From: Desulfobulbaceae bacterium
Lineage (GTDB): Bacteria; Desulfobacterota; Desulfobulbia; Desulfobulbales; SURF-16
Direction: 5' to 3'
DNA length: 64,000 nucleotides
NCBI GenBank assembly: GCA_020444175.1
Contig: JAHLLM010000014.1
Span: forward strand, 1 to 64,000
The notes under the pieces are model-generated. The model did not search any database. It had not been told where the DNA came from and saw only the letters and a list, made by a program, of their open reading frames with translations. Below are positions 35,077 to 39,554 of this stretch, piece by piece. How positions within the stretch are numbered: the stretch's first letter is position 1; the number at the start of each line of letters is the position of its first letter. The translations under genes were made by a program, and so were the position numbers.

Positions 35077-36172
35077 ATGTCTGCAGAACTGAAACAAAAA
35101 CTCCAGGAAACTCAATCAAGGCTGCTGGCCTTAAAGGAGCATCTTTGAATTAGATGCCCAGAGAGAGAAAATAGAAGAACTTGAGCAGCTGACAACGCAT
35201 CCTGAATTCTGGAATGACGCTGAGCGGGCCAAAAAGATCCAACAGGAAATAAGCAGGCTTCAGTATCCCATTGAGGGATGGGAATCGCTCAACACCATGC
35301 AGGAGGACGCCGATGTCCTTCTGGAACTGGCCATTGACGAAAAAGATCCGGAGACAGAACAGGAAGCTACCCTTATCCTCACTCAACTTCTCGACAAAAT
35401 TGCCGATTTTGAACTCGAATGCATGTTCTCCGGTGAGCATGACACAAATAATGCCATGCTTACTATTCACGCAGGAGCCGGAGGCACAGAGGCCCAGGAC
35501 TGGGTAGACATCCTGATGCGAATGTACCTGAGATGGGCCGAGGCAAAAGGATTTGGCACAGACATACTTGACCTGCAACCTGGGGATGAGGCCGGCATAA
35601 AAAGTACCACAATCATGGTCAAGGGCCGTTACGCTTATGGCTATCTCCGCTCCGAAATGGGAATTCACAGGCTGGTCCGCATCTCCCCATTTGATGCCAG
35701 CGGCAGGCGTCATACCTCCTTTGCCTCTGTGTTCATTTTTCCCGAACTTGACGATACGGTGGAAGTGGATATCAACGAGAAGGATCTGCGCATTGACACC
35801 TACCGCGCCAGTGGAGCCGGCGGTCAGCATGTCAACAAGACAAGTTCAGCGATCCGGATTACCCATCTGCCGACAAATATCGTTGTACAGTGCCAGAATG
35901 AACGTTCCCAGCACCGCAACAAAGATATTGCCATGAAAATGCTGAAAGCTCGTCTTTATGAACGGGAACAGGATCTCCAGGCTGAACAGCGTCAGGAATT
36001 GCAGGGAGAAAAAAAGGAAATTGCCTGGGGAAGTCAAATTCGGTCTTATGTCATGCAGCCCTACAGGCTTATCAAGGACCATCGGACCAACCAGGAAACA
36101 GGCAATGTCGAGGCAGTGCTTGACGGAGCCCTTGATCCTTTTATCAAAGCGTATCTCCTCTGGCAGAGATAG
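35077..36172 (+). CDS. prfB: Peptide chain release factor 2, programmed +1 frameshift
   Basis: The first 23 codons (from the ATG at 35077) end at CTT followed by an in-frame TGA (35146-35148). Skipping one T continues in the +1 frame at GAA (35147) to the stop at 36172, giving 364 aa, the usual RF2 length. A Shine-Dalgarno-like AAGGAG lies just before CTTTGA, exactly as in the classical RF2 autoregulatory site. The SPF codon-recognition tripeptide occurs in VRISPFDASG, and the GGQ peptidyl-hydrolysis motif in SGAGGQHVNKT. RF2 recognises UGA and UAA, so low RF2 lets ribosomes shift frame and make more. Automatic callers will start it at an internal Met near 35297. Confidence 0.95.
35132..35148 (+). 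promoter_or_regulatory. prfB recoding site
   Basis: The site is AAGGAG, a 3-nt spacer, then CTT TGA A. The internal ribosome-binding-like element and the slippery CTT before UGA are the two hallmarks of RF2 +1 frameshifting. In-frame UGA here should be read inefficiently when RF2 is scarce. Confidence 0.93.
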
Positions 36173-37702: not shown

Positions 37703-38563
37703 ATGAGATTACAAACGTTTTTCCTGGCAACGCTTATTGGCTGCTCTCTCAGCGTTGCTCTTCCCGCCCAGGCCAAGGTGGAATCGCAGGTCAGCAGCAC
37801 TTTTCAGGCTGCCGGTACCGCCCTTGACCTTGCCAGCTCCTTAAACGGCAAACACGTTTTCGTGTTAAGCAAAGGGAGTGTCAGTATTTTTACACGAGAC
37901 GGCAAGCTTGAGGACACTATCTCCGTTGACCCCACCTTTAACAGGATCTCTGTTTCAGGACTCGACCTGGCAAATCTGGAAGACAAAATCTTTCTGAGCA
38001 GCGAGGCCACCGGACTTGTCCAGGAGATCAGCTACTCCTTTATCGTTGATATTGACGTTAGCGACGCTCCGTTCCTCGGTATGCCTGATGCACCTGTTAC
38101 CATTGCCGTATTCAGTGACTTTCAATGACCTTACTGTGCCCGTTTAGGGCCATTATTCGAGCAGGTGCTCGAAAAGAATCCGGAATCCGTCAAGATTGCT
38201 TTTAAAAATTTCCCGCTACGGAGCCATAAGCAGGCAAAACCTGCGGCCCTGGCCGCCATTGCCGCCCAGAAACAAGGAAAATTCTGGGAATACCATGATC
38301 AGCTTTTCCAGAACATGAAATCGCTCACCCCCCAGAAGTTTCTGGAAATTGCTACAAATCTCGGTCTTGATATGGAAAAATTCATGAAAGACATGGCTGA
38401 CCCGGAAGTGGCAAAACGAGTGGATCTTGATACCAGGCAGGGTGCAGCTGTAGGTGTGAAAGGCACACCGGCCCTCTATATAAACGGCAGAAAACTGAAA
38501 GACAGAAGCGTCAACGGTTTCCAGAAAATCATTGACGAGGAGCTGGCCAAAAAAGGGAAATAG
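37703..38563 (+). CDS. DsbA-like thioredoxin-fold selenoprotein (UPYC)
   Basis: 286 aa if the in-frame TGA at 38126-38128 is read as selenocysteine. The frame upstream ends VTIAVFSDFQ and the frame downstream continues PYCARLGPLFEQV, together forming the DsbA-family active site with Sec142-Pro-Tyr-Cys145 in place of CPYC. The rest of the fold follows, including the cis-Pro segment VGVKGTPALYINGR. The signal peptide is residues 1 to about 24 (cleavage after AQA), so the protein is periplasmic. Residues 25-125 form an extra beta-rich domain. Just after the TGA, GCCC-GTTTA-GGGC can form a small hairpin with G first in the loop, as in bacterial SECIS elements. GGAGG precedes the ATG. Automatic callers will split it into two ORFs. 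Confidence 0.88.
38126..38156 (+). promoter_or_regulatory. Selenocysteine codon and putative SECIS hairpin
   Basis: The TGA is followed 9 nt later by a stem TG(T)GCCC / GGGCCA with loop GTTTA. Position within the coding sequence, short stem and a G at the start of the apical loop agree with the loose bacterial SECIS consensus. A SelB-dependent readthrough is predicted; selA/B/C/D are not in this window. Confidence 0.65.
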
Positions 38564-38564
38564 C

Positions 38565-39554
38565 TTGAAAGAACTCTCTTTTGCCGACAATGAGGCGGCC
38601 CGTCATCTTTATGGCGATTTGAACCAGAATTTACTGGCCATTGAAAAAGCGGTGGGAGTAACGGTTAAAGCCAGGGGAACAACCCTGACAATAACCGGCG
38701 AGGAGCACGATGTCGAAACCACCGCTTCCGCCTTGAATCAGTTGTATGATCTCATTATTACCGGCTATCCGCTTTACCCGTCAGATATTGTATTTGCCCT
38801 GCACATTCTTGAGCGTTCTCCCAGGGCCAACCTGAAGGAAATCTTTCTGGATCAGGTGTACATCACATCCAAACAACGGGTTATCTCCCCTAAAAGCATT
38901 AACCAGAAAGAATATATTGAAGCGATTCGCAGCCATGACATCTCATTCGGCATCGGCCCTGCCGGGACAGGAAAAACGTATCTTGCCGTGGCCATGGCTA
39001 TTGCCGCCTTCAGTGCCAATCAGGTGGGCTCAATTATTCTTACCAGACCGGCAGTAGAAGCCGGTGAAAATCTCGGTTTCCTGCCGGGCGACATGGTGGA
39101 GAAAATAAATCCCTATCTGCGCCCCCTCCACGACGCCCTCAATGACATGCTGGGCAGAGAACGGGCAAAAGAACTTGTTGAACGGGAAATCATTGAAATT
39201 GCCCCCCTTGCCTTTATGCGTGGCCGTACCCTCAACAATGCCTTTGTTATTCTTGATGAAGCCCAGAATTCCACCCCGGAACAGATGAAAATGTTTCTGA
39301 CCAGGATCGGCTTTAATTCCAAGGCCGTCATTACCGGGGATATTACCCAGATAGATCTTCCCCATGACCGGGGGTCAGGACTGATACACGCCGCAAAGGT
39401 CTTAAAAAGGGTTAAGGGCATCTCATTTAGCTATTTTACCGATATTGACGTTGTACGCCATCCGCTGGTGCAGGCAATTATCCGGGCCTACGAGAAAAAA
39501 GAAAAAAGCAGAAAAAAACAGGAAAAAGGCCATGAGCGTTCTTCTGCAAAGTGA
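38565..39554 (+). CDS. PhoH-like ATPase (YbeZ type)
   Basis: 329 aa from the TTG at 38565, one base after the selenoprotein stop; an upstream TTG at 38532 in the same frame is possible but overlaps that gene. A KH-like N-terminal segment is followed by the P-loop GIGPAGTGKTYLAVAMA near residue 131 and the Walker B FVILDEAQNSTPEQMKMFLTR near residue 227. The C-terminus is highly charged (KEKSRKKQEKG). PhoH/YbeZ proteins act in RNA metabolism and are commonly paired with YbeY, as here: the genes overlap by 23 bp. Confidence 0.9.
   Translation: MKELSFADNEAARHLYGDLNQNLLAIEKAVGVTVKARGTTLTITGEEHDVETTASALNQLYDLIITGYPLYPSDIVFALHILERSPRANLKEIFLDQVYITSKQRVISPKSINQKEYIEAIRSHDISFGIGPAGTGKTYLAVAMAIAAFSANQVGSIILTRPAVEAGENLGFLPGDMVEKINPYLRPLHDALNDMLGRERAKELVEREIIEIAPLAFMRGRTLNNAFVILDEAQNSTPEQMKMFLTRIGFNSKAVITGDITQIDLPHDRGSGLIHAAKVLKRVKGISFSYFTDIDVVRHPLVQAIIRAYEKKEKSRKKQEKGHERSSAK

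Follow-up and report, generated by a model that had tools for sequence, protein, structure and literature searches.

A candidate two-hairpin selenocysteine signal in the gene of a DsbA-like selenoprotein from a Desulfobulbaceae bacterium

In a sulfur-cycle bacterium, a disulfide-handling protein that is probably exported appears to use selenocysteine (Sec) at its active site. The gene lies in the window, that is, the whole 64,000-nt stretch of DNA that was analyzed, and its product is a DsbA-like selenoprotein, a kind already known. The signal for Sec insertion seems to consist of two hairpins rather than one, and the hairpin that would do the work is unusually distant from the codon. Judging from sequence comparison, the downstream hairpin, H2, is probably the conserved SECIS signal and the hairpin bound by SelB, while the upstream one, H1, may serve as a spacing helix. 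The explanation as a whole, comprising an exported Sec-containing DsbA, H2 as the SelB site and H1 as the spacer, is assigned a probability of roughly 0.85. Its basis is the position shared by UGA and cysteine codons, the Sec machinery of the host, selection downstream of the UGA, a Sec-specific H2, and the domain make-up found in sequence and model.

Modeling bacterial SECIS elements is difficult. The 80 Sec and 58 Cys rows (aligned homologous sequences) of one family amount to an experiment of nature in which constraint on the RNA can be told apart from constraint on the protein. The contrast between the two forms suggests which helix is the working one, why the spacing is variable, and what course the decay of a SECIS takes after a change from Sec to Cys. 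The features discussed below are collected in Table 1.

Table 1. Positions in the window of the selenoprotein gene, its parts, and the gene that follows it.
Feature	Positions	Strand	Basis
Sec-containing DsbA-like protein, 286 aa with U142	37703–38563	+	TGA=U translation, Pfam, homologues
N-terminal signal peptide (putative), residues 1–24 (AQA/K)	37703–37774	+	by eye, sequence and homologues
N-terminal domain, residues 24–115, probable two-blade beta-propeller fragment	37772–38047	+	PDB profile matches, model
Thioredoxin_4/DsbA-like domain, residues 122–279	38066–38539	+	Pfam; BdbD 3eu3 structural match
UGA read as selenocysteine, residue 142	38126–38128	+	translation and homologue alignments
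Cys145, second active-site residue (U-P-Y-C)	38135–38137	+	invariant in 58/58 aligned rows
H1 hairpin GCCC-GTTTA-GGGC, proposed spacing helix	38138–38150	+	folding, pair counts, Sec/Cys contrast
H2 hairpin TTCGAGC-AGGT-GCTCGAA, proposed SelB-binding SECIS, loop 38163–38166	38156–38173	+	folding, Sec/Cys comparison
Thr255-Pro256, putative cis-Pro pair, thioredoxin fold	38465–38470	+	invariant in 58/58 rows
phoH-like gene, directly downstream, presumed TTG start	38565–39554	+	PF02562, 318.5 bits

The protein, its domains and its neighbors

When TGA is translated as Sec, the frame contains a single U, at codon 142 (VFSDFQ-U-PYCARL), and runs on to a normal stop; a Shine–Dalgarno-like GGAGG is located 5′ of its ATG. 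This agrees with the original prediction, made from the letters of the window, of one frame open except for a TGA exactly where the first cysteine of a CPYC thioredoxin-fold protein should stand. Two Pfam alignments cross the TGA, namely PF13462 (residues 122–279, 97.5 bits) and PF01323 (residues 133–265, 81.4 bits against a cut-off of 25.6). With PF01323 above its cut-off and the UxxC motif present as U142-P-Y-C145, the protein falls within DsbA-like selenoprotein form 1. The structure predicted for the whole protein from a 58-row alignment has a mean pLDDT of 94.8 and superimposes on BdbD (3eu3) with a Z of 22.8 and an rmsd of 2.0 over 171 aligned residues. Other DsbA-type structures also match the model, over residues of about 113–284. 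The pair Thr255-Pro256 is assumed here to play the cis-Pro role typical of the thioredoxin fold.

The protein is probably exported by way of an N-terminal signal peptide recognized in its sequence, and in the structure model a helix covers residues 2–16 within this putative peptide. The residues LIGC at positions 11–14 (window 37733–37744) resemble what is taken to be a lipobox motif. The nearest relative, L010, has LIGT at this place and thus no cysteine, so that signal peptidase I is the more likely route of export.

The extra N-terminal beta domain noted in the original prediction proves to be real and propeller-like. Residues 24–115 have no Pfam match at E ≤ 0.1. A profile built from 96 rows matches beta-propellers of the PDB, with 1l0q as the best (E 3.2e-21), as well as WD40 and designed propellers. 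A fold search with the whole protein gave no match covering the greater part of the N-terminal domain; consequently, the domain was predicted and searched alone. Its separate model (92 residues, pLDDT 92.3) contains seven strands, equivalent to about two blades, and matches adjacent propeller blades with Z values of 8.9–10.1 among the best 50 matches listed, which are propellers by title; the best Foldseek E is 0.021. On the strength of these profile and model matches, the domain is probably a two-blade beta-propeller fragment, with fewer blades per chain than a closed propeller of the YVTN/WD40 type. Since two blades cannot close a propeller, either several chains come together or the fragment remains open. 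Closure by chain assembly is favored, with low confidence, by analogy with fragments described as self-assembling in the titles of 6r5y and 6r5z. Each of the 138 long-form rows taken has a stop-free stretch for the domain, which is therefore not peculiar to the host genome.

Of the 78 loci given, 43 have at least 800 nt of downstream sequence, and 41 of these carry the phoH-like gene there on the same strand; its extrapolated start is at most 53 nt away in 34 of the 41. In the window, phoH is followed by ybeY and then by pdxJ. Given this arrangement, termination at the UGA could be polar on phoH. On the other side of the gene, the window carries prfB, encoding release factor 2 (35077–36172; PF03462 and PF00472 on 35297–36169). 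The frame that begins at the ATG at 35077 reaches CTT-TGA behind AGGAG, after which the +1 frame opens, the slip site being CTTTGA at 35143–35148. CTTTGA behind AGGAG in prfB is taken to be the motif of a programmed +1 frameshift, so that UGA seems to be put to programmed use twice here, the prfB site being some 3 kb 5′ of the Sec codon.

Two hairpins downstream of the UGA

The comparison is based on 148 homologous rows fetched in two sets. The first set, with the window's own row included, has TGA (32) or Cys (41) at the aligned codon in 73 of 73 rows, and the later set has U or C in 75 of 75 (55 TGA, 20 Cys); Cys-containing homologues thus share the position, in line with the original prediction. 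The 55 later TGA rows are all the new TGA rows among the matches listed and were fetched because the search flagged a TGA, the 20 later Cys rows are part of the new Cys rows among those matches, and the Sec rows of the later set are related to those of the first. The long-form set comprises 138 rows, of which 80 are Sec rows (77 distinct) and 58 are Cys rows. Cys rows, whose protein is the same but has no need of Sec, therefore provide a natural control.

In H2, the loop AGGU is located 34 nt past the UGA, with seven possible pairs and −9.1 kcal/mol for 38156–38173. Bacterial SECIS rules, as given in passages of PMC13188914, specify a loop of 3–9 nt, a stem of 4–16 bp, a G in the first two loop positions, a distance of 16–37 nt from the UGA for most bacterial SECIS elements, and an MFE of at most −7.5. 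H2 conforms to these rules, which were applied directly to its sequence. In the first set, 6–7 of the 7 pairs are formed in 24 of 25 long-form Sec rows (L047 has 5/7), and the loop is AGGU or AGUU in all 25; in the later set, H2 is found in 55/55 TGA rows versus 1/20 Cys rows. Over all 138 rows, 6–7 pairs combined with an AG[GU]U loop occur in 79/80 Sec rows and 2/58 Cys rows. The motif AG[GU]U stands at nt 38–41 in every one of the 80 long-form Sec rows, while the loop letters alone are found in 18/58 Cys rows. The hexapeptide encoded by H2 exists in 16 kinds among the 80 Sec rows and in 46 kinds among the 58 Cys rows; consequently, the protein alone does not hold H2.

Pair counts for the two-hairpin structure lead in the same direction. 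In the 80 Sec rows, 86.7% of cells are paired (H2 94.1%, H1 78.1%), versus 29.6–51.0% for slid versions of the structure, and covariation amounts to 0.234 versus 0.143 ± 0.007 after shuffling, a value reached by 0/500 shuffles. Two of the five pair-count measures are weaker: eight pairs are changed on both sides, which 11/500 shuffles reach, and the number of further pair types is unremarkable (78/500). In the 58 Cys rows, the same structure gives no signal, with 46.2% of cells paired and 37.1–49.7% for slid versions. The stretches flanking the structure are not more folded in the Sec rows of the first set (one-sided p of 0.2 upstream and 1 downstream). After control for relatedness, the 12 independent Sec/Cys pairs divide, for H2, into 10.4 in which it accompanies Sec, 0 with the opposite trend and 1.6 without a difference (median p 0.002), so that its association with Sec is firm. 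A search of the host genome for the H2 core (14-base pattern, one mismatch) returned four other sites, none of which, by eye, has a TGA at equal spacing.

The case for H1 is built on register-free counts, pair counts and the contrast with Cys rows; RNAalifold on the 80 Sec rows predicts H2 only and does not return H1. A stem of at least 5 bp is present in 70/80 Sec rows versus 12/58 Cys rows (uncorrected for relatedness), and the folding mean z in the first set is −1.90 for Sec versus −0.15 for Cys. With relatedness controlled (MFE ≤ −6), 7.0 pairs go with Sec, 0.9 against, and 4.2 show no difference; at a median p of 0.0625 (range 0.004–0.69), this association is borderline. H1 is variable in sequence and occurs in at least two registers, 11–28 and 15–28/29, the former (18 nt) being spanned in 42 of the 70 rows with a stem of at least 5 bp. 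In some rows, mostly from one clade (L208, L039, L225, L233 and L260), folding of the first 55 nt from the UGA places both hairpins inside an extra outer stem (for example, ACUGC with GCAGU), giving a predicted three-way junction.

Formate dehydrogenase (FDH)-like genes of the host order allow the spacing to be compared. The 32 rows considered, which are the best matches of one query together with two host paralogues, all have UGA, and 28 of them carry NGGU at nt 21–24, that is, GGU at nt 22–24. GGU occupies the same positions in 7/7 rows of a shorter Sec-DsbA without the propeller domain, and in 1/80 rows of the long Sec form. Comparison of GGU at nt 22–24 with AG[GU]U at nt 38–41 shows that the motif is displaced by 17 nt in the long form. 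When the length of H1 is subtracted from 34, the remainder is 16 in 42 of 70 rows, 19–20 in 21, and 12–21 in the other 7, which suggests that the length of H1 approximately makes up the added distance compared with the FDH SECIS of the host order. As folded, the FDH loops start 17 nt (2 rows), 18 nt (23), 19 nt (2) or 21 nt (5) past the UGA; due to this variation over 17–21 nt, the match in spacing with the long Sec form is only approximate.

In the proposed mechanism, SelB carrying Sec-tRNA would bind H2, with its AGGU loop, and deliver Sec at UGA 142, while H1 would fold away the surplus length and thereby place the SelB site at about the normal effective distance. The product would be an exported thioredoxin-fold oxidoreductase with U142 as the nucleophile and approximately two propeller blades in front of it. 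In the periplasm, its U-x-x-C motif may cycle between a selenenylsulfide and a reduced selenol/thiol pair, and in doing so oxidize, reduce or isomerize disulfides. A more general reading is that of a new bacterial SECIS class, in which a freely evolving H1 folds surplus mRNA and one SelB serves loops at both nt 22 and nt 38. This generalization is tentative and is given slightly less than even odds.

A less likely but still plausible view is that both hairpins are needed in another way: H1 might cause pausing or anti-termination where the mRNA enters the ribosome, or H1 and H2 might form one three-way junction. H1 starts about 7–11 nt past the UGA, which presumably lies near the mRNA entrance of the ribosome, and some rows do fold into such a junction. 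According to passages of PMC4513850, the ribosome occludes about 11 nt. Against both arrangements, the spacing left after subtraction of H1 (16 nt in 42 rows and 19–20 nt in 21, out of 70) comes close to the FDH value.

Far less probable is the view of the original prediction, which had read the G-first hairpin 9 nt downstream of the TGA as the SECIS. The hairpin itself is present: it is H1, with its first stem base 9 nt and its loop 13 nt past the TGA. In the window, its loop does begin with G, and H1 is Sec-associated, so H1 could be regarded as the SelB-binding element and H2 as a by-product of conserved coding sequence. However, a distance of 13 nt lies outside the 16–37 nt given in the passages of PMC13188914, and a G at nt 17 or 18 is found in only 41/80 Sec rows, so that the loop of H1 is not conserved. 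The loop of H2, in contrast, keeps AG[GU]U throughout the Sec rows, resembling the GGU of the FDH SECIS, and its variable hexapeptide argues against maintenance by the protein alone. H1 as the main SECIS signal was rejected for its spacing and unconserved loop.

Reading of the UGA and distribution of the Sec and Cys forms

Within the 64-kb window, 40 TGA codons have at least 60 open codons on both sides, and five of these, U142 included, are accompanied by a stem of at least 7 bp in range under one crude rule. An open frame plus a hairpin is thus weak evidence when taken alone, and it is the sequence comparison with homologues that confirms the observation at U142 as above chance. A homologue match was obtained in 57 of the 58 genomes searched (the window's own genome included), and the nearest relative, which is 77% identical, retains the TGA. 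Nonsense codons elsewhere in the homologues, which would have pointed to a pseudogene, are confined to one row: among the 80 long-form TGA rows, another internal stop (TAG) was flagged only in L260. Compared with the Sec relative L010, pN/pS is 0.159 before the TGA and 0.219 after it; the Cys relatives give 0.168 before and 0.354 after (L013), 0.18 and 0.30 (L014), and 0.242 and 0.242 (L016). These values indicate purifying selection on both halves of the gene, with looser constraint past the TGA against two of the Cys relatives, L013 and L014.

The genes for Sec synthesis and insertion, in whose absence the original prediction would have fallen, are all present in the host genome (5.42 Mb): one tRNA-Sec (selC; 67.2 bits), selA (621.9 bits), selB (367.8 bits) and selD (379.1 bits), each above its cut-off. 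An in-frame TGA also occurs in the host selD, with a hairpin loop about 20 nt past the UGA, and in three FDH-like genes, all of which score below the TIGR01553 cut-off. Across the host order, tRNA-Sec was detected at E ≤ 1e-9 in 202/242 genomes and, under strict filters, not in the other 40. Among the Sec-form genomes of the set, it was detected at this threshold in 54/68; the 14 in which it was not found under these filters include four listed as 92–95% complete (G016, G025, G146 and G205).

A pseudogene or truncated protein, with the UGA as the plain stop of the standard code and a GTG-started ORF following at 38165 as the second of two fragments, was rejected and retains hardly any probability, given the 80 long-form rows that share this TGA, the pN/pS of 0.219 past it against the Sec relative, an H2 that is intact in nearly all UGA rows and in very few Cys rows, and the complete Sec machinery.

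On an unrooted tree of the 138 rows, obtained with a quick method, the distribution of Sec and Cys needs 19 changes, 12 of them forced by starred branches, versus a shuffled mean of about 44.5. Far-apart Sec clades share one and the same H2, in an identical register, and two Cys rows have kept it intact; many of these changes therefore probably run from Sec to Cys. The two Cys rows, L056 (870–920, + strand) and L265 (594–644, − strand), retain 7/7 pairs and the AGGU loop, and their H2 is probably a fossil SECIS left after such a change; L056 is on a long branch and its placement is unsure. Both genomes (G043 and G058) retain tRNA-Sec, and consequently the change from Sec to Cys did not follow loss of the tRNA-Sec gene there. 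The proposed new class would include the decay of both helices once Sec is replaced by Cys, a part of that reading which is held just as tentatively.

A profile of the two-hairpin RNA matched 39 of 345 genomes of the phylum at E ≤ 0.001. Thirty of these loci were fetched and comprise 16 UGA DsbA rows with 6–7 H2 pairs, 14 of them outside the host order, one UGA homologue with 4/7 pairs, six Cys rows, and seven loci without a DsbA homologue. The 14 out-of-order Sec rows are spread over eight additional family codes within the phylum, and 11 of them have H1 at 15–19/24–28, sometimes longer by 1–2 pairs and with differing stem sequences. As these rows were chosen by the RNA profile, they are supportive only and constitute no independent test of H2. 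The homologue with 4/7 pairs, L322, has a single hairpin whose loop, AGGA, is about 22 nt from the UGA.

The shorter Sec-DsbA without the propeller domain is represented by L059–L065 (G006:C54, G007:C21, G042:C127, G029:C25, G025:C39, G027:C19 and G052:C421). In six of the nine genomes with this short form (G006, G007, G042, G029, G027 and G020), a TGA-bearing FDH-like match lies on the same contig, about 4–4.5 kb away.

Comparison with known systems

The feature likely to surprise specialists is the proposed two-hairpin signal; DsbA-like and DsbG-like selenoproteins of the UxxC type are known already. In the titles and abstract openings of the open-licence PMC literature, no description of a two-hairpin bacterial SECIS or of a propeller-DsbA selenoprotein was found. 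The SECIS of E. coli fdhF has a small apical loop with an early G, and H2 has these properties in common with the fdhF type. In FDH-like genes of the host order, GGU lies at nt 22–24 (28/32 rows), whereas AG[GU]U of the window gene lies at nt 38–41 with a second helix in between.

At the level of structure, the thioredoxin-like oxidoreductases BdbD, ScsC and 3gyk share the fold over residues of about 113–284, with Z of about 20–23. However, they have Cys instead of Sec, and no propeller domain is aligned in them; ScsC presumably oligomerizes through a different N-terminal part.

The expectation that Sec at the active site of DsbA-like proteins would be familiar is borne out by passages of PMC1088965, PMC1794560 and PMC13188914, which contain UxxC proteins of the DsbA-like or DsbG-like kind. 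The DsbG-like/Rcas_1661 family (NF041057, UxxC, in passages of PMC13188914) is the best NCBIfam match of the window protein and is matched by 58/58 aligned members. The window protein nevertheless reaches 75.6 of the 190 bits required by the cut-off, in a match confined to residues 122–279. DsbA-like selenoprotein form 1 (PF01323, UxxC), as represented in passages on the Sargasso Sea set of PMC1088965 and in passages of PMC13188914, shares with it the thioredoxin fold, Sec as the first residue of the CxxC motif, and the existence of Cys homologues. Beyond these shared points, the window gene has a propeller-like domain in front, a two-hairpin signal, and phoH as a conserved neighbor, which may set it apart from the published examples of form 1.
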